From assembly GCF_024169925.1 (NCBI RefSeq), contig NZ_JALJXF010000002.1:1-64000 (forward strand): a stretch of 64,000 nucleotides of DNA. The letters are read 5' to 3'. Both the position numbers and the translations under genes were made by a program. Below the pieces are notes generated by a model. That model did no database searches. It saw only the letters and a list, made by a program, of their open reading frames with translations, and was not told the DNA's origin. The DNA comes from Methylorubrum extorquens (lineage in GTDB: Bacteria; Pseudomonadota; Alphaproteobacteria; Rhizobiales; Beijerinckiaceae). This document shows, one piece after another, positions 40,193 to 59,876 of this stretch; positions within the stretch are counted from its first letter, which is position 1; each line of letters begins with the position of its first letter.

Positions 40193-41254
40193 ATGGAGCT
40201 TGACGCTGCCGAATCCGACTCCGGGCCGACGCCCCGCGCGTTTGCTGCACCGGTCCCGTTCGCCGACGCGCTGCCGCCCGGCCTCGACCTGCTGATCGAG
40301 CGGCTCGAGGAACACGCCCGCGCCGCACGCGGGGCTTTCGCCGACAACACGATGCGCGCCTTCGCCGCCGACAGCCGGATTTTTTCGGCATGGTGTGGGC
40401 AAGCGGGGAGGGCGATGCTGCCGGCCACCCCTGAAACCGTCGCCGCCTTCATCGACGCCCAGGCCGAGATCAAGGCGCGCGCCACCGTCGAGCGCTACCG
40501 CTCCTCGATCGCCGCCCTGCATCGTGCGGCCGGACTTTCGAACCCCTGTGCCGACGAGATCGTCCGGCTCGCGGTGAAGCGAATGAATCGGGCCAAGGGC
40601 CGACGCCAGGAACAGGCCGAGCCGCTCAACCGGGGAAGCATTGAGCGCATGCTTGATGTGAAGACGCCCGAGCGACGGCATCGGCGCGTGACCGAGGCGA
40701 AACGCGACGTGCCGCTGATCGCGCTGCGCAACGCTGCGCTGGTTGCCGTCGCCTACGACACCCTGCTGCGCCGCTCCGAACTCGTCTCATTATATATAGG
40801 GGATCTGCACAGGGGCGCCGATGGCTCCGGCACCGTACTGGTGCGGCGCTCGAAGGCCGACCAGGAAGGGGAGGGGGCTATCAAGTACCTCGCCCCCGAC
40901 ACCATGGCGCATGTAGACGCTTGGCTTGCGGCTGCTCAGCTGGTGAGCGGGCCGCTGTTCCGGCCGCTGAGCAAGGGTGGGCAGGTCGGCGCGGCCGCCC
41001 TTGGGGGAGGGGAGGTCGCGCGGGTGTTTCGCGATCTTGCCACAGCGGCCGGGCTGAAGCTTGCGCGACTCCCCTCCGGACACTCGACCCGGGTTGGGGC
41101 GACGCAGGACATGTTTGCGGCGGGATTCGAGCTGCTTGAGGTAATGCAGGCCGGCTCGTGGAAGACCCCGGCGATGCCGGCGCGCTATGGTGAGCGCCTG
41201 CGAGCCCATCGGGGAGCCGCGAGAAAGTTGGCGACTCTGCAGAACAGAGCATGA
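40193..41254 (+). CDS. Tyrosine recombinase/integrase
   Basis: 353 residues. N-terminal SAM-like core-binding domain (residues 30-140; ADNTMRAFAADSRIFSAWC, VAAFIDAQAEIKARATVERY) and a catalytic domain with YDTLLRRSELVSLYIGDL (first Arg), LVRRSKADQEGEG (Lys), GHSTRVGATQDM (His297-x-x-Arg300), GSWKT (Trp in place of the second His) and PARYGER (nucleophile Tyr near 335). It appears intact and is the type seen beside plasmid and genomic islands. It stands at the border between the transfer region and the TIR island, so it may have brought in the island or may resolve plasmid multimers; no att repeats could be matched by eye. Confidence 0.88.
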   Translation: MELDAAESDSGPTPRAFAAPVPFADALPPGLDLLIERLEEHARAARGAFADNTMRAFAADSRIFSAWCGQAGRAMLPATPETVAAFIDAQAEIKARATVERYRSSIAALHRAAGLSNPCADEIVRLAVKRMNRAKGRRQEQAEPLNRGSIERMLDVKTPERRHRRVTEAKRDVPLIALRNAALVAVAYDTLLRRSELVSLYIGDLHRGADGSGTVLVRRSKADQEGEGAIKYLAPDTMAHVDAWLAAAQLVSGPLFRPLSKGGQVGAAALGGGEVARVFRDLATAAGLKLARLPSGHSTRVGATQDMFAAGFELLEVMQAGSWKTPAMPARYGERLRAHRGAARKLATLQNRA

Positions 41255-41627
41255 CTCTCAGCGGCTGCCGTCGGCTGGCTGAATATGACCCAGAGCGGCC
41301 TCTAGAAACGTCTGCTTGTCGACGTGCTGGACCCTATGAGCCAGCGGCCGATCATAACTGGCGGCGAGCAATGTGCATCAAGGCGTTGGAGTAAAACCGC
41401 GTCAACCTGAATGCGATCAGCGAGTGCGTTGAGGCGAACGTGGCCATGCAACCCGATCTACCGGATCCTCGGGCGACCTTCCGCTTCAGGAGCGATCTCC
41501 CGCTAACTGGAGCGGAACCTCCGTTCTCCCGGGCACCCACCCAACAATGGATTGCTATCCAGCACGATTATGTTCTATATGTTCACGATATGTGCTGCGC
41601 CTACAGGCCGAGAATGGAGCGAGTTTG
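41255..41627. other. Intergenic region upstream of the TIR island
   Basis: 373 bases with no supported gene. Short frames on both strands lack motifs. It could contain promoter sequence for the ThsB-like gene and possible recombination remnants, but none is identifiable. Confidence 0.3.
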
Positions 41628-42107
41628 GTGGCGAAGAAATGCTTCCTTAGCTTTCACTATAAGCCCGACAACTGGCGGGTGCAGCAAGTCCGCAACATCG
41701 GCTCAATTGAGGAACAGCCGCTGCTCGACGCCAACAAGTGGGAGGAGATCAAGAAGAAGGGTGATCAAGCCATAAAGGATTGGATCGAATCCAACCTAAA
41801 GGGTAAAGAATGCCTTGTGGTTTTGGTTGGCGAAAAGACTGCAGATAGGCCCTGGGTCAAGTATGAAATCAAGGAAGCCTGGAAGAAAGGCCTCGGCGTT
41901 ACAGCCGTGTATATCCACGGCCTCAAAAACTCCGATGGTGTGCAGGGCACGAAGGGGAGAGATCCCTTTGTAGGACTTAGCGTGAGCGGCGAAACGATTG
42001 TCGGCACTACACACGATACGCCTTACTCCTCCAGCACGTACGTTTATGACCACATTAAGGAAAATATAGAGACTTGGGTCTCGGATGCAATTAAGGCGCG
42101 CAAGTAA
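41628..42107 (+). CDS. ThsB-like TIR-domain protein (DUF1863), solitary
   Basis: 159 residues from GTG at 41628, which has GGAG upstream; a longer frame from 41547 adds Cys-rich sequence that does not fit the family. KKCFLSFHYKPDNWRVQQVR is the DUF1863/ThsB start, followed by KWEEIKKKGDQAIKDWIESN, then ECLVVLVGEKTADRPWVKYE (candidate catalytic Glu near residue 80) and GLGVTAVYIHGLKNSDG. ThsB TIR enzymes of Thoeris turn NAD+ into a signal nucleotide after phage infection. No ThsA partner is adjacent; nearest neighbours are another ThsB-like gene (convergent) and the integrase. It is more AT-rich than the backbone. Confidence 0.82.
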   Translation: MAKKCFLSFHYKPDNWRVQQVRNIGSIEEQPLLDANKWEEIKKKGDQAIKDWIESNLKGKECLVVLVGEKTADRPWVKYEIKEAWKKGLGVTAVYIHGLKNSDGVQGTKGRDPFVGLSVSGETIVGTTHDTPYSSSTYVYDHIKENIETWVSDAIKARK

Positions 42108-42208: not shown

Positions 42209-42880
42209 CTAGCGGCCCGCCTCACGCGCGGCGCGGTCAATCCAGCTACCGATGCTGTTGTAACCGCCCTGCTTCCAGTCGTACTCGCTCGTCCAGGCGG
42301 ACAGCGGAATGACGCCCTTTCGAACTGAGGCGCCGATGTACATCGGTATCGGTACACCGCTCACGTAATCGGAGTACCACACCCACTTCCACGCGCCGTC
42401 AACGTAGTTCCGCTCGCAGAGGCGGTAAGTGCCGTCGTCACGCTGAGCGACACCCATGAACGCTGTGGGATTTGGACCCAAGGGATGTGGTTGGCGCGGA
42501 GGCTGATGATTCGGAATGGAGTTGATGTGAACGGTCAGAAGGCCTTTACTATCGATCACGCTCCGCGCGATCTCATAGCGAACCCACCGCCTCGCGTAGG
42601 TCTCCGCTCCGGCCAGCACGCAAACCACAGACGTGTTGTGCACACCATCCCGGATCAGCTGCTTCAGAGCGTCCGGTCCGCTCAACCTTTTGCTTTCCCA
42701 AAGGCTATTGTCGTAAAATCCTTCGATCGATCGACCTCCACTTGAGCTTTCGGAACTTTTAAACTCCTGCGAGAGCCTAACATTGTTCACGCGCATGATG
42801 TCGTTGTAGTGGAAGGAAAAGAAAACCTTTCGCTTGGTTGAGACTGCGCGGGCACCACTAAGATCAAATAATCCGGCCAT
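42209..42880 (-). CDS. ThsB-family TIR protein (DUF1863)
   Basis: 223 residues. It follows the ThsB pattern closely: KRKVFFSFHYNDIMRVNNVR, SLWESKRLSGPDALKQLIRD, HNTSVVCVLAGAETYARRWV with RYEI (candidate catalytic Glu103), then LLTVHINSIPNHQPPRQPHP, GPNPTAFMGVAQRDDG and a C-terminal YDWKQGGYNSIGSWIDRAA corresponding to the YDW..DGYN ending of ThsB. In Thoeris, ThsB makes a cyclic ADP-ribose-type signal. Here the coupled upstream gene encodes a small membrane protein instead of ThsA, overlapping it by 17 bases. Confidence 0.88.
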   Translation of the reverse strand: MAGLFDLSGARAVSTKRKVFFSFHYNDIMRVNNVRLSQEFKSSESSSGGRSIEGFYDNSLWESKRLSGPDALKQLIRDGVHNTSVVCVLAGAETYARRWVRYEIARSVIDSKGLLTVHINSIPNHQPPRQPHPLGPNPTAFMGVAQRDDGTYRLCERNYVDGAWKWVWYSDYVSGVPIPMYIGASVRKGVIPLSAWTSEYDWKQGGYNSIGSWIDRAAREAGR

Positions 42881-43304
42881 AGCTCCACCACGTTATTGCA
42901 AGCGTTGCGATAATGCAGATTATTAAAGGTACGTAGAAGAATCCAATATGCCAGCTTAGAAGGACATTACGGAATTTGATAATTGGCGCAGAACTAAGCT
43001 TAATTTCAAATGTTGGCAGTACATCGAAGCCTTCTTCCCTGCTTTTATCATATAGACATCTGAACCGCCTTTCCAATCTGAGATATTGCGCATCGAGGAG
43101 AGCGCAGAAAGCGGCTATAATCAAAGCGAGCAAGGCTCCAACTGGCCGCTGCACGGTCAACGACACGCCGACAACAGCCGAGGTCAGCGTTATGCAATAG
43201 TTTCGGACTGTCGCGCTATTCGATGACATCCGCAGGACAACGGCTTGCAGCATTTCAAGATGTTTTAGGCGGAGGTCGGCGACCTTCTCCGACGTAAGCG
43301 TCAT
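42864..43304 (-). CDS. Small membrane protein coupled to the ThsB-like gene (SLATT-like candidate effector)
   Basis: 146 residues. N-terminal amphipathic helix (KVADLRLKHLEMLQAVVLRM), a hydrophobic pair (NYCITLTSAVVGVSLTVQRP, VGALLALIIAAFCALLDAQY), a charged cytosolic helix (LRLERRFRCLYDKSREEGFD) and a C-terminal membrane helix (FYVPLIICIIATLAITWWSY). The two-helix-then-cytosolic-helix layout recalls SLATT-type effectors in nucleotide-signal immune systems, which disrupt the membrane. The reading frame runs directly into the ThsB-like gene, so the two are one unit. The family assignment is by topology only. Confidence 0.55.
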   Translation of the reverse strand: MTLTSEKVADLRLKHLEMLQAVVLRMSSNSATVRNYCITLTSAVVGVSLTVQRPVGALLALIIAAFCALLDAQYLRLERRFRCLYDKSREEGFDVLPTFEIKLSSAPIIKFRNVLLSWHIGFFYVPLIICIIATLAITWWSYGRII

Positions 43305-43496: not shown

Positions 43497-44117
43497 CTAC
43501 CGTCCTGCCCCGCCAACTACGCGCGGCCGCATGAAGTCGCGCGGGTCGTTCCGCCAGGATTCGAACGTCCGTGAGTTCGGCGCTTCGAACAGCGTGATGC
43601 CGCTCGGGCTCGTGACGACGGGCCTGACGACCTCAAGTTGCCCCTCCTCATCCAGCTCGACGTACGGGTAAAGGCCGAGGAACTCGCGGCTGCGGTAGTA
43701 TCGCTCGCCTTCAGGCAAGACCGGGAGGACGGCAACGAGACCTTTCCGCCCATCGAACCAACCCAGTTCCCAACACATCCACAGCGACTGGGCCGCGTTC
43801 ACGGTGTCGAGGAATAGCAGGGTGTCGCTTACACCCATAGTCGTACGGACAAATTCGGCGTTGGCGGGCGTGACTTGGCTGCGATCGGTCTCGGGCGCTT
43901 CGATCCAATCGCAGAAAACATCATACCCGGCGTTGGTGAGCATGTCGTAGACTCCGAGAACGATCTCGGCGTCGCGGATCGTCTGGGAGAGGAAGATGTC
44001 ATATCGCGGGCGTCGATTCCGAGCGATCCGGCCCAGCGCCTCCGGGACGCTGATCCCAGCCGCCCCGGCCCTGCGTCGCGCCCGCGCGCGGATGTCGGCC
44101 TCCTGTAGGAACGCCAT
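43497..44117 (-). CDS. TIR-domain protein (third gene of TIR-SLOG-TIR operon)
   Basis: 206 residues. A ~38-residue helical N-terminus (DIRARARRRAGAAGISVPEA) precedes a TIR domain: RYDIFLSQTIRDAEIVLGVY, YDVFCDWIEAPETDRSQVTP, SDTLLFLDTVNAAQSLWMCW with candidate catalytic Glu117 in CWELGWFDG, and KGLVAVLPVLP. The tail (YPYVELDEEGQLEVVRPVVT ...) is beta-rich and absent from ThsB-type proteins, so this is a different TIR class. It starts 6 bases after the SLOG gene stop on the same strand and is therefore part of the same transcript. Confidence 0.8.
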   Translation of the reverse strand: MAFLQEADIRARARRRAGAAGISVPEALGRIARNRRPRYDIFLSQTIRDAEIVLGVYDMLTNAGYDVFCDWIEAPETDRSQVTPANAEFVRTTMGVSDTLLFLDTVNAAQSLWMCWELGWFDGRKGLVAVLPVLPEGERYYRSREFLGLYPYVELDEEGQLEVVRPVVTSPSGITLFEAPNSRTFESWRNDPRDFMRPRVVGGAGR

Positions 44118-44123
44118 GCGCGG

Positions 44124-44780
44124 TCAGGCCTTCTTGCCTGGCCGCCAGAATCGATCCGGGATCGACGCCGGCTGGTCGTCCGGGTCCTTGAACCGCTCCT
44201 CCCGCACGGACACGGCGAGGTGACGGTGCAGGAGCGCTACGTAGTCTAGGTCGTCGGCTAGGTCGGGGTCGAGCAGCCCGGCCCGCGCCGCCACGTCGAG
44301 CGTTGCGCCGCCTGTGGACACGACCGGGACGACCACGGCGTTTGGTTGTAGGCGGCGGAACATCTCGTACTCCTGCGTGATGCCGCCCATCCCGCCGATG
44401 AACACGGCGGCTTGGAAGCCGTGGTCCGAGAACATGCGCTCGCGCATCACTAGGAGGCTTTGCTCGCGGTCGCCGGGGACGTCATCCGTGAAGGTGACGT
44501 TTTGGAACCGCTGGTTGTCCTCAGGGAACTCGTCTGCGAAATGCCGCGATTGGTACAGGCGGACCCAGCGCCCGTAGTCGACGCCGACGTCCTGCGCGAT
44601 CGTCCAGACCATCGGCGTGATCGCCGGGTGACCGCCCCAGACGAGGAGGCGGCGGCCGAGCGTCACGTGGACGAGGGCCGACACGGCCGCGGTGATCGCC
44701 ACCGTGTCGGCGGTCGCCGCGTATTGTGGCCCCCGCCTGGGATCAGGGACGCCCGCGGAGAGGAAGACAGCGTCGACCAT
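44124..44780 (-). CDS. SLOG-domain protein (cluster 3 type)
   Basis: 218 residues from ATG at 44780, spaced 6 bases after a GGGAGGG site; an ATG at 44786 overlaps the previous stop. MVDAVFLSAGVPDPRRGPQY, LGRRLLVWGGHPAITPMVWT, then FIGGMGGITQEYEMFRRLQP (the Gly-rich nucleotide-binding loop and following Glu) define a SLOG fold. The VFLSxxVPDP start is characteristic of a group found beside TIR and other conflict genes. In Thoeris ThsA a SLOG domain senses the TIR-made signal. Here it is a separate protein between two TIR genes, so it may be the sensor or ligand processor of a three-gene system. Confidence 0.78.
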   Translation of the reverse strand: MVDAVFLSAGVPDPRRGPQYAATADTVAITAAVSALVHVTLGRRLLVWGGHPAITPMVWTIAQDVGVDYGRWVRLYQSRHFADEFPEDNQRFQNVTFTDDVPGDREQSLLVMRERMFSDHGFQAAVFIGGMGGITQEYEMFRRLQPNAVVVPVVSTGGATLDVAARAGLLDPDLADDLDYVALLHRHLAVSVREERFKDPDDQPASIPDRFWRPGKKA

Positions 44781-44782
44781 GC

Positions 44783-45943
44783 TCATCCCTCCCATGCGGC
44801 GAGCGCCCAACCGGCCTCCGCGACTTTGATGGAACGCACGGCCCGGATGTGCTCGCCCAACCAGACCAGGTGCGCGTTCCAGGCGTCGCGGATGCCGACG
44901 TGGTCATAGACCAGCACCGGGGTCTCGCCCTGGTCGGCGCGGCGGGCCTTCTCGGCGATGTCGTTGAGGATCTCGGCGTTAGGTACGCCAACGACCGGGT
45001 AGGCCCAGATCTTCCGGTCGTCGAGAAGCCGTATGGCGACGGCACGATGAGCCCCGATGCCCTCCACCGACCCGCCGAACTTTTCTACGTCGGCCCGCAG
45101 CTTGCCGGTGATCGCCATGTACCGGGCCGCGATGGCCCGGCTGCGCAACCGCTCGACGCGGACCACGATGGCGTCTGCGACCGCGCGCGTTACCGGCCCG
45201 TCCGAGCCCTCGAGCTCAGCCGGTTCGAGATAGACGGTCTCGGCCAAGTCGGTGAGCCTGCTGGGGACGTGCTCGGGCCATATGACCCGCAGCACGTGGA
45301 TGTCCTTGGCGCGGGCGCGGCCGATCTCTTGCCGCGTCCAGCGGCTCTCGAAGTAGGTCGGCGTGTCGAGCATCACCATAACGTCGGCGTCGACCAGGCG
45401 CTGCCACAGGACGTCCTGGAACGGGTCCCCGGGGCGAATGTCGTGCGTGTCCAAGAACACATCGAATCCGCGGGCAGTGAGGAGGTCGTGCAGCTGCAGA
45501 GCCGCCGCGCGGGATTCAGTGCGGCGGTAGCTAACGAACACCCGGCGCTGTTTCCGTAGAAGCCCCACGCATTCGAGCAGCGCCGACGCCAGCTCAACGA
45601 GCGCGCCGTCGTCACCACGACGCCGCAACCCGTTCGCGGATTGCAGGAAATCGGGGATATGTCGGGCGAAGTCGCCGGCCGGCCCTACCGTGGGGATTAC
45701 CGGCGCGCTGGACCGAAACAGCGCGCGCGCAGCCTCCACGTCAGCGTGATCGTCGCCAGCGAAGTAGGCCGCGGCGAACGCCGCACGCTTGTCGCGGCCC
45801 GCGACGTTCGAGCTGTCGAGAACGCGCACGTCAGTGCCGACTGCGAGGCCGAAGTCTTCGATCATGCCGCGCAGCGTCGCGGTTAAGGTCGTCCTCTCGT
45901 CTGGCGTCGCACACCCTAGGATCGCAAGCTCGTACAGGCTCAT
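44783..45943 (-). CDS. TIR protein with N- and C-terminal extensions (first gene of TIR-SLOG-TIR operon)
   Basis: 386 residues in three parts. Residues 1-130 (YELAILGCATPDERTTLTAT; VRVLDSSNVAGRDKRAAFAA; HADVEAARALFRSSAPVIPT) form an alpha/beta domain that resembles a diverged TIR or receiver fold. A canonical TIR follows (RRVFVSYRRTESRAAALQLH, GFDVFLDTHDIRPGDPFQDV; catalytic-type Glu near 205 in RWTRQEIGRARAKD). Residues 265-386 form an additional domain with ILNDIAEKARRADQGETPVL and VYDHVGIRDAWNAHLVWLGE that I cannot name. It overlaps the SLOG gene by 3-4 bases. The presence of two TIR proteins and one SLOG protein in one operon is the basis of the proposed new immune module. Confidence 0.8.
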   Translation of the reverse strand: MSLYELAILGCATPDERTTLTATLRGMIEDFGLAVGTDVRVLDSSNVAGRDKRAAFAAAYFAGDDHADVEAARALFRSSAPVIPTVGPAGDFARHIPDFLQSANGLRRRGDDGALVELASALLECVGLLRKQRRVFVSYRRTESRAAALQLHDLLTARGFDVFLDTHDIRPGDPFQDVLWQRLVDADVMVMLDTPTYFESRWTRQEIGRARAKDIHVLRVIWPEHVPSRLTDLAETVYLEPAELEGSDGPVTRAVADAIVVRVERLRSRAIAARYMAITGKLRADVEKFGGSVEGIGAHRAVAIRLLDDRKIWAYPVVGVPNAEILNDIAEKARRADQGETPVLVYDHVGIRDAWNAHLVWLGEHIRAVRSIKVAEAGWALAAWEG

Positions 45944-45952
45944 CTGCTGGCC

Positions 45953-46300
45953 TCAGCGCCCGGCGGCTTTGTCGGCCGCCTCGATCTACGCGGACATATT
46001 ATTGTACCCATCGCTGGCGACCCAATCGTCCGTCCGCCGCGCTTGACCAACCGGTATGACAGCAAATTCCTGCCCTGGACGTCCGCGCCGAGTTGCTGAT
46101 CTTTCACCTTGTGGAAGTCGATGGCAAGCAGGCCCTTCCCAGGCTTGTCGCTGCGCCTGATCTCGTGGCCGACCCATTCGCGTTCGGGGGGTTGCGCGCC
46201 GAACAGGACCACCGTGACGGAGGTGTCCTTCAACTGGTCTCGATCCACTTCTCGATGCCGCCCGCGCGTCGCTTCGCCTCACCGGAGGTATCTCCGGCGG
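45953..46300 (-). pseudogene. Decayed ThsB-like (DUF1863) TIR gene
   Basis: Pieces of one ThsB-like protein lie in successive frames: EAKRRAGGIEKWIE (about 46290-46245), then DRDQLKDTSVTVVLFGAQPP, EREWVGHEIRRSDKPGKGLL and AIDFHKVKDQQLGADVQGRN in the next frame, then TDDWVASDGYNN in a third. The final frame reads NNMSA, a TAG, then IEAADKAAGR and TGA at 45953-45955; the TAG stands where the family has Trp (SxWIxxA). Thus at least two frameshifts and one Trp-to-amber change have inactivated it. It lies just upstream of the TIR-SLOG-TIR operon. Confidence 0.75.
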
Positions 46301-46883: not shown

Positions 46884-47144
46884 ATGCGCCGTTGGCTCCG
46901 CGACCTGTTTCAGCCGAGCCGCTTCCGGCGTGAGGTGGCCGCCAAGGCAACCGACCTCCTGGCCGTTCATGGCGCGTTGGCCTACCGCGTTGCCCGCGAG
47001 CAAGCGCGCATAGAGCGTGCGGCTCACCGCTCGACCGAGAACCACTTTTGGAGCCGCGTCGCGGTTGAAATTGCCCGACGTGAGGGGCGAGCGGATCAGA
47101 TTGGGGTGAAAGGCTCGGATCGGTGGGGCAAATTCGGGGAATGA
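46884..47144 (+). CDS. 86-residue basic protein, copy 1
   Basis: 86 residues (MRRWLRDLFQPSRFRREVAA). Arg-rich helical protein with the block KATDLLAVHGALAYRVAREQ then RIERAAHRS and FWSRVAVEIARREGRADQIG ending in VKGSDRWGKFGE. A second copy of the same length lies at 49626-49886 and differs at a minority of positions, which argues that both are real genes under selection. The family is not known to me beyond being common as small plasmid or genomic proteins in Rhizobiales-type genomes. A nucleic-acid-binding role would suit the charge but is not shown. Confidence 0.65.
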   Translation: MRRWLRDLFQPSRFRREVAAKATDLLAVHGALAYRVAREQARIERAAHRSTENHFWSRVAVEIARREGRADQIGVKGSDRWGKFGE

Positions 47145-47436: not shown

Positions 47437-48567
47437 ATGGACCGCAGCTTCCCCCTGACCCGCGCCGCCGGCCTCGACAGCCTCTCCGATTTCCTCGCAG
47501 GCGCGGGCGCGGCCTATGCCGCCAACCGCAACACCGACCGGGGGCCGGAAGCCGAGGCGACCACCTCGGGCCTCTCGCCTTATCTCCGCCGGCGCCTGAT
47601 CACGGAGGCCGAGGTGGTCGCCACCGCCGACCGGGCCTTCGGCGATGGCGGGGCGGAGAAGTTCGTCTCGGAGGTGTTCTGGCGAACCTACTTCAAGGGC
47701 CACCTGGAGACCCATCCCGCCGCCTGGGCGGATTATCGCACGCTGGCCGCGGCGGGCCATGACCGCCTCGCCGCCGAACCCGGCCTGAGGCGGACCTATG
47801 CAACGGCGGTCGAAGGACGGACAGGCATCGACGGCTTCGACGACTGGGCTCGCGAACTCGTCGCCACGGGCTGGCTCCACAATCACGCCAGGATGTGGTT
47901 CGCCTCCATCTGGATCTTCACCCTGCGCCTCCCCTGGGCGCTCGGGGCCGACTTCTTCCTGCGTCATCTCCTCGACGGCGACCCAGCGAGCAACACCCTG
48001 TCCTGGCGCTGGGTCGCGGGCCTGCACACGCGCGGCAAGCACTACGTCGCACGCGCCGAGAACATCCGGCGCTATACGGACGGACGCTTCGATCCCGTAG
48101 GGCTCGACGAATATCCGGACGCCCTGGACGAGGCGATGCCGCCGCGCGAGGTGCCGCTGCCACGGGCCGACGCCGCCCCGAGGGGCGAGATCGCGTTGCT
48201 CCTCCACCTCGACGATCTTCACCCGGAAAGTCTGCCGTTGGGGGATGCGAAGGTGGTTCGGCTCGGCGGCCTGATCGCCCATGCGGACGGCGCGTCCGGG
48301 CGCGTCAGGTCGGCGGACATGGCCGCCATGGCTGACGCCCTGGCCCGCGCCGAGGCGCATTTTGAGTGTCCGGCCGGCGATGTTGGAACCGACTGGGGCG
48401 GGGGGCTTCCCGTGGTGACGGCTTGGGCACCCGTCGGGCCATCGGCAGCTGCGCTGCCCCAGGGTTGCCTGCGGGTGCGACGGGCGTGGGACGAGGCCGC
48501 TTGGCCGAGGGCGACACGCGGGTACTCCCGCCTGCGCTCTGTGATCCCGAGCCTGCTCGGAGCCTGA
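47437..48567 (+). CDS. Photolyase-like FAD-binding domain protein
   Basis: 376 residues. It contains the C-terminal helical FAD-binding half of the cryptochrome/photolyase family: GLDSLSDFLAGAGAAYAANR, NTDRGPEAEATTSGLSPYLR, VFWRTYFKGHLETHPAAW, GYRTGxxGxDDWARELV-like region, WLHNHARMWFASIWIFTLRL, and SWRWVAGLHTRGKHYVARAE with the NTLSWRW and ENIRRYT motifs. The alpha/beta antenna domain of true photolyases is missing, and instead a ~150-residue C-terminal part follows. Such stand-alone FAD domains are known in proteobacteria. DNA repair activity cannot be assumed. Start is ATG at 47437. Confidence 0.85.
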   Translation: MDRSFPLTRAAGLDSLSDFLAGAGAAYAANRNTDRGPEAEATTSGLSPYLRRRLITEAEVVATADRAFGDGGAEKFVSEVFWRTYFKGHLETHPAAWADYRTLAAAGHDRLAAEPGLRRTYATAVEGRTGIDGFDDWARELVATGWLHNHARMWFASIWIFTLRLPWALGADFFLRHLLDGDPASNTLSWRWVAGLHTRGKHYVARAENIRRYTDGRFDPVGLDEYPDALDEAMPPREVPLPRADAAPRGEIALLLHLDDLHPESLPLGDAKVVRLGGLIAHADGASGRVRSADMAAMADALARAEAHFECPAGDVGTDWGGGLPVVTAWAPVGPSAAALPQGCLRVRRAWDEAAWPRATRGYSRLRSVIPSLLGA

Positions 48568-49625: not shown

Positions 49626-49886
49626 ATGGTCCTGCCACGATGGCTTCGTGACCGCCTCATGCCAGCACGGTTCCGCCAGGAGGTCGCGGGCAAGGCCACC
49701 GACCTTCTCTCCGTCCACGGCGGCCTAGCCTACCGCGTCGCCCGCGAGCAGGCCCGAATGGAAAGGGCCGGCGGCCGCTTGACCGAGTGCCGCTTCTGGA
49801 GCCGCGTCGCGGTCGAGATCGCCCGGCGCGAGGGACGGGCCGATCAGATCGGCGTGAAGGGCGGGGATCGGTGGCCAGATCCCTGA
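49626..49886 (+). CDS. 86-residue basic protein, copy 2
   Basis: 86 residues from ATG at 49626 (MVLPRWLRDRLMPARFRQEV). It matches copy 1 (46884-47144) over its whole length: AGKATDLLSVHGGLAYRVAR, EQARMERAGGRLTECRFWSR, VAVEIARREGRADQIGVKGG. Equal length, shared end point and scattered conservative changes indicate an old duplication with both copies maintained. The two copies bracket the photolyase-like and nuclease genes. Confidence 0.65.
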   Translation: MVLPRWLRDRLMPARFRQEVAGKATDLLSVHGGLAYRVAREQARMERAGGRLTECRFWSRVAVEIARREGRADQIGVKGGDRWPDP

Positions 49887-51544: not shown

Positions 51545-52423
51545 TTACTCGGCAGATTTTTTGTAGGGACCCCGCTTCGCCGGCTGCTCTTCCATGCCCT
51601 CTACCAGCGCCACGATATCGCTAATCTCCCAAAGCCGATCCGACACGCCAGCAGCCATAGCTGGGCTCATCCGCAGCTTCGCGTGGAGCCGGACGAAGTT
51701 GTAGTACATGAAGTGCAGCGCCACGGCATAGGCGTGGTTCTCGACCTTCTTTGAGAAGGCATTTGTGAGCCGGGTGAACCGGCGCATGTGCATCCGCATC
51801 GTGAGGTTCTGACGCTCGACGTAGGACGTGGAGACGTGCGCCTCGTCGGGCGAGCCTTCAACGGTGGTCTTCTTGATCCCGGTGCATTCAGCGGGGCTGT
51901 AGCGGCCCGTAGCGCCACCAGGGGCGTTCCCGTAAATCTTCACGAGCTGGGCGTAATCGACATCGGCACCGAAGGCGTCTTCGACGGCCTGCAGGTACGC
52001 CTTATGACCGTCTGAAGTGAGCTGGACACGGTTGGTAAGGCGGGCCTTTAGATCGTCGATGAACCATGCAGCGCACTCACCGTCCCGAGCGCCGATGAAG
52101 TAGGACAGGACGAGCTTGCTGTCGGCATCGATGGCCGTCCACGTCCATGTGTCTCCAGCGCCGTCAGGCGCCGCCACAGCGCCCGCCACGTTCTTCTGCT
52201 TGGCGTAGGTGAAGCTCCAGATCTCATCGACCTGGACGCGCTTCGCGGCGACTTTGCGAACGTGCTCATCGTGGTAGGCAGCGCAAGCCTTTCCAGCATC
52301 CACCAGCAGTTTGGAGACGGTGTTCTTGCTCGCGCCCGTCAGCCGGGTCACGGCGCGGATCGAATTCCCTTCGCAGAGAAGGTGAAGGATGCGCGCGCGA
52401 TCCGAAGCGGAGAGCTTGTTCAT
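51545..52423 (-). CDS. IS1-family-like transposase
   Basis: 292 residues from ATG at 52423 (MNKLSASDRARILHLLCEGN); GTG at 52432 is possible. An N-terminal HTH (IRAVTRLTGASKNTVSKLLV) is followed by a DDE-type core: RVQVDEIWSFTYAKQKN (first Asp/Glu), TWTWTAIDADSKLVLSYFIG, LTSDGHKAYLQAVEDAFG (second Asp), and QNLTMRMHMRRFTRLTNAFS with YVERQ supplying the Glu. The VDEIWSF/YAKQKN pattern is that of IS1-like transposases in Alphaproteobacteria. No IS1-type short TIR pair bounding only this gene was found; it lies inside the larger 50715-55027 element. Confidence 0.85.
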   Translation of the reverse strand: MNKLSASDRARILHLLCEGNSIRAVTRLTGASKNTVSKLLVDAGKACAAYHDEHVRKVAAKRVQVDEIWSFTYAKQKNVAGAVAAPDGAGDTWTWTAIDADSKLVLSYFIGARDGECAAWFIDDLKARLTNRVQLTSDGHKAYLQAVEDAFGADVDYAQLVKIYGNAPGGATGRYSPAECTGIKKTTVEGSPDEAHVSTSYVERQNLTMRMHMRRFTRLTNAFSKKVENHAYAVALHFMYYNFVRLHAKLRMSPAMAAGVSDRLWEISDIVALVEGMEEQPAKRGPYKKSAE

Positions 52424-52531
52424 AACTCCCACATGCGACCATTTTCAGCCTTAAGTCAAGCATATGGGTCAGTTTAAGCCATTGACTTAATCGGCCTTGA
52501 AACCAATATCCCCATCAGGTAATCACGGGGG

Positions 52532-58320: not shown

Positions 58321-59876
58321 CTGTGTGAGAACGCGTTTTGGTCTATCGGTGCGGAGCGGAGATGGTGCGCGAGGTGCGGCGTGCTCTCACGCCCGGAGGG
58401 CGCTGAGGAGCGTTTCAACTCCGAGGATCGCCAGCACCCTCTTCAGATTATAGGCCAGGACTTGTAGGCTCATCTCGGTCGCCACGTTTTTCAACCGTCG
58501 CGTCCGGAAGTGGGTCGCCCCCATCCAGCCCTTGAGCGTCCCGAACACGTGTTCGACCGTTTGCCGCCGCGTGCGCATCGCGTGAGAATCCGCGTCGAGC
58601 CGGCGCTGCACGGCTTCCAATACCGCCTCGTGCTCCCAGCGCGTCACCCGCCGCTCCTTGGCTGGCGTGCAGCGCGCCTTGAGCGCGCAGCCGTGGCAGG
58701 CTGTCGTCCAGTAGCGCCGTAGCGTCAGCCCACCCTCAACATTCGTGTAGCGGTAGGGGAGCTGCTCACCGGCCGGACAGCGGTAGGTATCCGTCTCCGC
58801 CTCGTAGACGAAGTCCTGTTTGCCGAAGCGCCCTTCCGCCTTGGCACCCGAGGTCAGCGGTTTGGGCAGTGTCACCGCGATGCCGGCCTGATCGCAGGCT
58901 AGGATCTCCTCGCCCGAGAAGTAGCCGCGGTCAGCCAGCACGCTGAGCGCTTCATGCCCGGTTGCGACTTGGCCCTGGCGGCTCATGTGCGCCAGTTGGG
59001 TGCGGTCGTGCCCGACGTTAATGACCTCGTGGGCGACGATCAGATGATGCTCGGTGTCGACGACCGCCTGCACGTTGTAGCCGACCATCCCCGTCCCCTT
59101 GCCGCGCGTGGCCATCGCCCGCGCGTCCGGATCGGTCAGCGAGATCTGCCGGTCGGGGGCGGCTTCGACGAGCGTCTCCATCGCCTGCAGTTCGCGCATC
59201 CGCGTCCGCAGGGCGTCCAGACGCTCCGCGATGCGCACCTTGCGCACGTGGGCGACCTCGTCCTCCTGGCGATCGGCGGTGTCGAGGGCGGCGAGATAGC
59301 GCGCGATGCTGGCCTCGATCTGCTCGATGCGGCGCCGGACCGCCGCCGGGGTAAAATTGCGATCACGCGTGTTCACCGCTTTGAAGCGGCTGCCGTCGAG
59401 AGCCACGATACCACCGGCCAGGAGGCCGAGTTGTCGGCACAGCACCACGAACTGGCGGCAGGCGGCCTGGATCGCAGGACCATTATCGCGCCGGAAGTCG
59501 GCGATGGTCTTGAAGTCGGGGGCGAGGCGGCCGGTCAGCCACATCAGCTCGACGTTGCGACCGGCCTCACGCTCCAGACGGCGGCTGGAAGTAACTTGGT
59601 TGACGTAGCCGTAGAGGTAGAGCTTCAGCAGCGTCGCGGGATGGTACCCGGGCCGTCCGGTCGCGGCCGGCATCATGCTCGCAAAGCCCAGGGCCGTGAG
59701 ATCGAGCTCGTCTACGAACAGGTCGACGACGCGCACCGGATTGTCTTCGGACACATAGTCGTCCAACCGGTTCGGCAACAGCGTGACTTGGTGGCGATCC
59801 GCACCACAGATGAACCGCGCCATACACGCCTCCGCTGTCCCACAGAGACTATCAGAACCGCTACGTTTTCACACAG
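58321..59876 (-). mobile_element. IS1182-family insertion sequence
   Basis: Ends CTGTGTGAGAACG (58321-58333) and CGTTTTCACACAG (59864-59876) form a 12-of-13 inverted repeat around one transposase gene. No obvious target duplication was identified by eye. Confidence 0.7.
58387..59823 (-). CDS. IS1182-family transposase
   Basis: 478 residues (MARFICGADRHQVTLLPNRL). Domains: N-terminal DUF772-like (DELDLTALGFASMMPAATGR, GYHPATLLKLYLYGYVNQVT), DDE core with DFKTIADFRRDNGPAIQAAC, GIVALDGSRFKAVNTRDRNF (Asp), then GKGTGMVGYNVQAVVDTEHH (Asp), and C-terminal Cys cluster CHGCALKARCTPAKERRVTR plus TVEHVFGTLKGWMGATHFRT (Glu). The ORF is complete, so the element may be functional. Confidence 0.93.
   Translation of the reverse strand: MARFICGADRHQVTLLPNRLDDYVSEDNPVRVVDLFVDELDLTALGFASMMPAATGRPGYHPATLLKLYLYGYVNQVTSSRRLEREAGRNVELMWLTGRLAPDFKTIADFRRDNGPAIQAACRQFVVLCRQLGLLAGGIVALDGSRFKAVNTRDRNFTPAAVRRRIEQIEASIARYLAALDTADRQEDEVAHVRKVRIAERLDALRTRMRELQAMETLVEAAPDRQISLTDPDARAMATRGKGTGMVGYNVQAVVDTEHHLIVAHEVINVGHDRTQLAHMSRQGQVATGHEALSVLADRGYFSGEEILACDQAGIAVTLPKPLTSGAKAEGRFGKQDFVYEAETDTYRCPAGEQLPYRYTNVEGGLTLRRYWTTACHGCALKARCTPAKERRVTRWEHEAVLEAVQRRLDADSHAMRTRRQTVEHVFGTLKGWMGATHFRTRRLKNVATEMSLQVLAYNLKRVLAILGVETLLSALRA

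Follow-up and report, generated by a model that had tools for sequence, protein, structure and literature searches.

Type III Thoeris core genes of a Methylorubrum extorquens contig: a constant ThcB4-ThcA pair that may act as a divided ThsA

Identity of the locus

The first 64,000 nucleotides of contig NZ_JALJXF010000002.1 of Methylorubrum extorquens (NCBI RefSeq assembly GCF_024169925.1; this whole stretch is called the window below) carry three minus-strand genes between positions 43497 and 45943 that encode a large TIR protein, a stand-alone SLOG protein and a small TIR protein. These genes form the core of an anti-phage locus, type III Thoeris, since both core proteins exceed their NCBIfam cut-offs over the whole length of the models: the SLOG protein matches NF058525 (Thoeris_type3_ThcA) with 261.8 bits against a cut-off of 110 (model positions 1–184 of 184), and the large TIR protein matches NF058526 (Thoeris_type3_ThcB4) with 474.7 bits against a cut-off of 220 (model positions 1–375 of 375, residues 4–379). 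A first-pass annotation had described the trio as an undescribed module, itself setting a match to a named system as the refutation; these matches end that claim, and the immune module related to Thoeris that it saw is borne out. The gene layout it gave is also correct (Table 1): the ThcA ATG start overlaps the ThcB4 stop by 4 bp, and the small TIR gene begins 6 bp past the ThcA stop on the same strand (open reading frame starts were called mechanically).

The small TIR protein belongs to a family called T2 here, and the other small TIR genes nearby to a family T0; these are labels of the present analysis (sequence clusters 2 and 0), not published names. As in type III Thoeris loci elsewhere, both core proteins are full-length, their order is ThcB4-ThcA, and ThsB-type TIR genes surround them. 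In the window ThcB4 immediately precedes ThcA on the same strand, and the pair is accompanied by more TIR genes (the T2 gene and two intact T0 genes), two features that we drew from the relatives compared below and not from a published definition. It differs in that the canonical upstream T0 TIR gene is broken, and in the additional presence of a plus-strand TIR gene and of a TIR gene paired with a PDC-M50A gene. The window's genome holds one copy of ThcA. Phage-borne copies were also considered and rejected, none of 50,697 phage records giving a ThcA match.

Type I Thoeris, which consists of a SIR2-SLOG ThsA and ThsB TIRs, shares with this locus the small-TIR families in equal flanking slots, the SLOG fold and the Ser/Arg/Glu residues of the pocket, and the T2 and both T0 proteins match PADLOC ThsB models. 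The window differs in having no SIR2, a separate SLOG (ThcA is 220 residues long), a ThcB4 TIR in place of the SIR2 NADase and no Lys388 hairpin (see below); the window's genome gave no match to PF18185, the ThsA-type SLOG family. Type II Thoeris, with its transmembrane-macro ThsA, likewise has ThsB-type TIR proteins beside the effector, but ThcA is a SLOG protein and the trio lacks a macro domain; a Pfam scan of ten proteins from the trio and its surroundings found none, the whole genome not having been searched for macro domains. The TIR-SAVED effector of the cyclic-oligonucleotide-based anti-phage signalling system (CBASS) also places a TIR NADase domain under the control of a nucleotide sensor, but here the sensing SLOG is a protein of its own, no CD-NTase (the nucleotidyltransferase class of CBASS) was seen in the trio, and the signal is presumably made by TIRs. 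In the literature searched, a partial set with few preprints and no subscription papers, we found neither the source of the Thc names nor a description of the type III mechanism as proposed below; among the matches listed, one source (PMC12390725) mentions a phage gene against "Thoeris type III".

ThcB4 and ThcA form the constant unit of the locus

Homologues at E<=0.001 are far more numerous than chance allows for all three proteins: 1,700 for the SLOG protein, 208 for the third gene's TIR, and 1,597 for the large TIR protein from 7,999 candidates scored, a number that may include TIR-only matches. The comparison set contains 83 loci (80 from genome contigs, the best 80 of 91 confirmed, two plasmid loci and the window), which fall into 60 groups at 90% ThcA identity. 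ThcB4 was recognised at 100 bits or more in 80 of the 83, and is full-length (at least 350 residues) in 74, the six shorter copies being split, truncated or located at the end of a contig. In 79 of these 80 its gene immediately precedes ThcA on the same strand, and the remaining one (L027) fails solely through a mechanically called overlapping start. When remnants are counted, ThcB4 directly precedes ThcA in 83 of 83 loci; the three with only a remnant are L061, where it is cut by the contig edge, and L065 and L068, where it is partial. Among plasmid records ThcA occurs in 29 and ThcB4 in 30, with 29 shared and the odd one a partial TIR match, and among 385 sampled genomes of the window's class both exceed the cut-off in the same two.

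The two proteins have also diverged together. With one locus per 90%-ThcA group and full-length ThcB4 only, the distances of ThcA are closely correlated with those of ThcB4 (r=0.94, 54 representatives). For the 32 representatives with an upstream T0 gene the ThcA-ThcB4 value is 0.93 and the ThcA-T0 value 0.39, and for the 13 with a downstream T2 gene the corresponding values are 0.92 and 0.72; free replacement is thus suggested for the T0 TIR and less clearly for the T2 TIR. One to five accessory TIR genes accompany the pair in 60 of the 61 loci for which 5 kb of sequence is available on either side; in the remaining locus, L075, ThcA and ThcB4 are both truncated. The conserved unit is therefore ThcB4-ThcA with at least one variable TIR, and not the particular three-gene set.

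Accessory TIRs are shared with type I Thoeris

The T2 protein of the window is a divergent TIR, its Pfam TIR_2 match (0.0045) being below the cut-off; it matches the PADLOC ThsB model PDLC00422 (3.3e-45) and the solved structure 8btn_B (7.9e-28). Solved relatives of the plus-strand T0 protein are 8wcf_A (1.1e-39) and 6lhy_A (4.3e-16). T0-family TIRs are present in at least 71 of the 83 ThcA loci, 46 of which have an open gene in the upstream slot; T2-family TIRs are found in at least 37, often elsewhere or on the opposite strand; these counts are minima because the genes were gathered by iterated phmmer, which missed divergent TIRs (for example L022:5492-6304).

The operon is not complete at the edges given for it: in the slot where intact relatives have a T0 gene before ThcB4 the window holds the remnant of one. 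Alignment of five intact relatives by tblastn divides this remnant into three segments of differing frame (46280-46239, 46239-46024 and 46057-45956), the first 43 residues of none of the five find a match, and the C-terminal half of PF08937 is recognised at 45940-46248. The gene is judged broken because of the frame changes and the unmatched start.

Fourteen ThsA loci were compared. Ten were picked for diversity from the 16 listed plasmid matches that had 80% cover or more (there are 82 such records); the other four come from the only genomes with a match among 398 sampled. A T0 TIR adjoins ThsA in eight and a T2 TIR in four (each at 150 bits or more), and three of the 14 have the layout T0-ThsA-T2, the same as T0-ThcB4-ThcA-T2. 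For a tree of the T0 family 100 proteins were dereplicated to 67, ten of them from beside ThsA and the others from anywhere in ThcA flanks. In this tree the partner changes between ThcA and ThsA eight times, at least seven of these being forced by supported branches (shuffled mean 9.5), and no bootstrap tree has a single origin. The T2 tree (35 proteins, five beside ThsA) has four changes, at least three forced (shuffled mean 4.8). This suggests, from comparison of sequences, that the small TIR genes around the pair are exchangeable phage sensors. Two of the 83 ThcA loci have a type I ThsA in their flanks of up to 8 kb (L027, 10000-11445, minus strand; L043, 9570-11180, plus strand), so that ThsA, ThcB4-ThcA and T0-family TIRs stand together there.

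The SLOG and large TIR proteins

ThcA is a stand-alone SLOG protein (Pfam LD_cluster3, 1e-80). Its predicted model is best matched by the signal-sensing SLOG domains of ThsA, and a profile match to the ThsA SLOG was also obtained; sequence comparison with solved structures gave no credible match. The pocket of the ThsA SLOG that binds 3' cyclic ADP-ribose (3'cADPR) contains Ser288, Phe357, Arg371, Lys388 and Glu403 (PMC7272460, PMC10022894). The predicted pocket residues of ThcA are Ser10, Arg115 and Glu139, and the equivalents of the pocket Ser, Arg and Glu are kept in 82, 81 and 81 of the 83 loci; the Phe357 position has Phe in 60 and Tyr in 18.

ThcB4 matches Pfam TIR_2 (6.5e-18) at residues 135–223 with long flanks on both sides, and its TIR domain spans about residues 131–272. 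The three-part structure proposed earlier holds as a central TIR with long flanks; the novel-looking termini are part of the NCBIfam ThcB4 model. The catalytic-type Glu noted in both TIRs is well conserved, Glu206 (TRQEIG) in 74 of 74 full-length ThcB4 copies and the T2 Glu117 (CWELG) in 43 of 43 T2-family proteins of the compared loci. In the AlphaFold model of ThcB4 (predicted local distance difference test score, pLDDT, 80.4) the TIR matches plant and SARM1 TIRs; the domain resembles effector TIRs (SAVED-TIR, SARM1), and by single sequence the best solved match of ThcB4 is the TIR-SAVED structure 7qqk (E 2.2e-4). Its terminal parts were tried as an additional TIR or SLOG and rejected, with no credible profile match (the best was 0.0052, N-terminal part against ThcA); fold searches with the whole model returned mainly TIR-domain hits or loose matches of Rossmann type, none informing the terminal domains.

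Proposed division of roles

In type I Thoeris, ThsB TIRs sense phage and make a cyclic ADP-ribose that is read by the ThsA SLOG (PMC11204291). The sensing complex of one staphylococcal system is formed by a capsid protein with two ThsB proteins (PMC12578639). By homology, the small ThsB-type TIRs of the window (the T2 protein and the nearby T0 proteins) would recognise phage and convert nicotinamide adenine dinucleotide (NAD) to an ADP-ribose-type signal, free ThcA would bind this molecule in its homologue of the ThsA pocket, and loaded ThcA would activate ThcB4, whose SARM1-like TIR would cleave NAD and, if the locus is active in this host, stop the infected cell. We think it rather probable that the small TIRs signal, ThcA receives and ThcB4 destroys NAD, ThcA and ThcB4 together being a two-protein ThsA. 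This is the simplest reading because ThcB4-ThcA occupies the place of ThsA, is served by the same TIR families and has a ThsA-like receptor fold. The first-pass annotation also had a TIR that depletes NAD under SLOG control, which remains plausible, but gave that role to the second TIR, whereas ThcB4 is the constant, co-diverging partner of the SLOG. Its roles for the two TIRs are probably reversed, because ThcB4 is constant and has an effector-like TIR, and the second TIR, which resembles ThsB, is optional (its family occurs in 37 of 83 loci) and shared with type I.

Several observations weigh against the split ThsA. The equivalent of BcThsA Lys388, a 3'cADPR contact, is replaced by Gly in 38 of the 83 ThcA proteins and retained as Lys in only five, and the hairpin that bears it is missing, so the ligand of ThcA may differ from 3'cADPR; with Foldseek alone ThcA has no match at E<=0.001. 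In profile comparisons of ThcB4 the TIR-SAVED structure falls out and BtTir (7uxr) becomes the best solved match, and PADLOC places ThcB4 under ThsB (PDLC00434), among the signal makers. The catalytic-type Glu is kept in 74 of 74 ThcB4, 92 of 92 T0 and 43 of 43 T2 proteins, and therefore its conservation cannot distinguish a sensor from an effector. The window's own copy of the canonical upstream T0 TIR is broken, and the ThcA-T2 distance correlation of 0.72 (13 representatives) is fairly high. Partner changes in the trees are slightly below the shuffled mean (8 against 9.5 for T0, with 38–40 of 500 shuffles as low), and partner type is therefore weakly clustered; the "Thc" label in these trees covers any T0 or T2 protein in ThcA flanks of up to 8 kb, including some that may work with other effectors there.

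LOG-type SLOG enzymes employ Arg and Glu residues in the corresponding positions, and therefore ThcA could itself be an enzyme. The direction might then be the reverse, ThcB4 (alone or with the small TIRs) making the signal and ThcA executing as a LOG-like nucleotide hydrolase. We regard this as unlikely: the nearest folds to ThcA are ThsA receptor domains, the ThcB4 TIR resembles effector TIRs, and the small TIRs of 60 of the 61 well-flanked loci would be hard to explain were ThcB4 the signal maker. It is less probable still that the TIR signal acts mainly on a neighbouring effector, with ThcA-ThcB4 as a regulator. Candidates for such an effector are the PDC-M50A protein, whose family is found in 11 of the 83 loci (9 of the 60 groups), and a SLOG-patatin fusion found in three, with a shorter relative directly after ThcA in a fourth, but most loci have neither, no non-TIR family occurs in more than 9 of the 60 groups (open reading frames opposite core or TIR genes aside), and PDC-M50A has no Pfam match and none in NCBIfam over the cut-off. 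Least probable of all, and by some way improbable in itself, is the small T2 TIR as NAD-depleting effector with the large TIR as sensor, for its invariant catalytic-type Glu and its co-oriented gene 6 bp from ThcA are set against a ThsB-like family that is often elsewhere or on the opposite strand when present at all, and that also adjoins ThsA, itself an effector.

Neighbouring genes and mobile context

Table 1. Genes of the type III Thoeris locus and its surroundings in the window
Feature	Position	Strand	Description
ThcB4 gene	44783..45943	minus	386 aa; N-terminal domain, central TIR and C-terminal domain; proposed NADase effector
ThcA gene	44124..44786	minus	220 aa; stand-alone SLOG; proposed receptor of ADP-ribose-type signal
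Accessory TIR, T2 family	43497..44117	minus	206 aa; proposed phage sensor/signal-making enzyme
Remnant of ThsB-type TIR, T0 family	45956..46280	minus	tblastn with five intact relatives; PF08937
Two-transmembrane protein, PADLOC candidate family PDC-M50A	42864..43304	minus	PADLOC 3.6e-23; possible additional membrane effector
ThsB-type TIR, T0 family	42209..42880	minus	PF08937 1.4e-18; PADLOC PDLC00431 2e-40, PDC-M50B 6.7e-40
ThsB-type TIR, T0 family	41547..42107	plus	PF08937 4.2e-29; PADLOC PDLC00433 8.9e-64
Tyrosine recombinase	40193..41254	plus	PF00589 1.3e-8; mobility context, outside the mechanism

The trio itself encodes no SIR2, macro or membrane effector, as had been noted, but the PDC-M50A protein with its two transmembrane helices (identified by eye in the sequence, with no prediction tool) lies within 2 kb. 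Its gene overlaps that of the minus-strand T0 TIR, both being within 2 kb past the trio, and the adjacent PDC-M50A and PDC-M50B matches at 42209-43304 correspond to the PADLOC candidate system PDC-M50. Nine of the 11 loci with the PDC-M50A family also hold a T0-family TIR, and this protein and the overlapping T0 TIR are possibly a separate system of a TIR plus a membrane effector. The plus-strand T0 gene, also within 2 kb, is the third intact accessory TIR gene near ThcB4-ThcA.

A hidden recurrent non-TIR effector was sought by clustering open reading frames of at least 90 aa within 6.5 kb of ThcA in the 83 loci, and none is universal; the recurrent clusters are TIRs, frames opposite core or TIR genes, and the PDC-M50A family. 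The SLOG (LD_cluster2)-patatin fusions are at L082:4288-5904, L030:11877-13562 and L033:11946-13562, the first recognised with Pfam (LD_cluster2 and Patatin) and the other two by homology at more than 840 bits; they adjoin a T0-family TIR in L030 and L033, and the shorter relative is at L071:8632-9591. The fusion appears to be a further effector responding to TIR signals of the same kind.

The tyrosine recombinase gene and transposase-like genes at 51545-52432 and 58387-59823 suggest that the locus is in a mobile setting; no clear direct repeats marking an island edge were found. Two 242-nt direct copies, 74% identical (46885-47126 and 49633-49874), flank a photolyase-like gene (47437-48567) and a nuclease-like (SNase) gene.

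Significance

As the system already has a name the discovery claim falls, and the value that remains is a testable assignment of roles for type III Thoeris, in which a constant pair takes the place of ThsA and the small TIRs come from families that also serve type I. We would give an even chance to the wider proposal of a TIR-to-TIR relay and of a pool of sensor TIRs serving ThsA, SLOG-patatin and ThcA/ThcB4 as mix-and-match circuits with a shared messenger. If this is true, one nucleotide-signal family would drive several executioners, and sensor and effector would be swappable by recombination.
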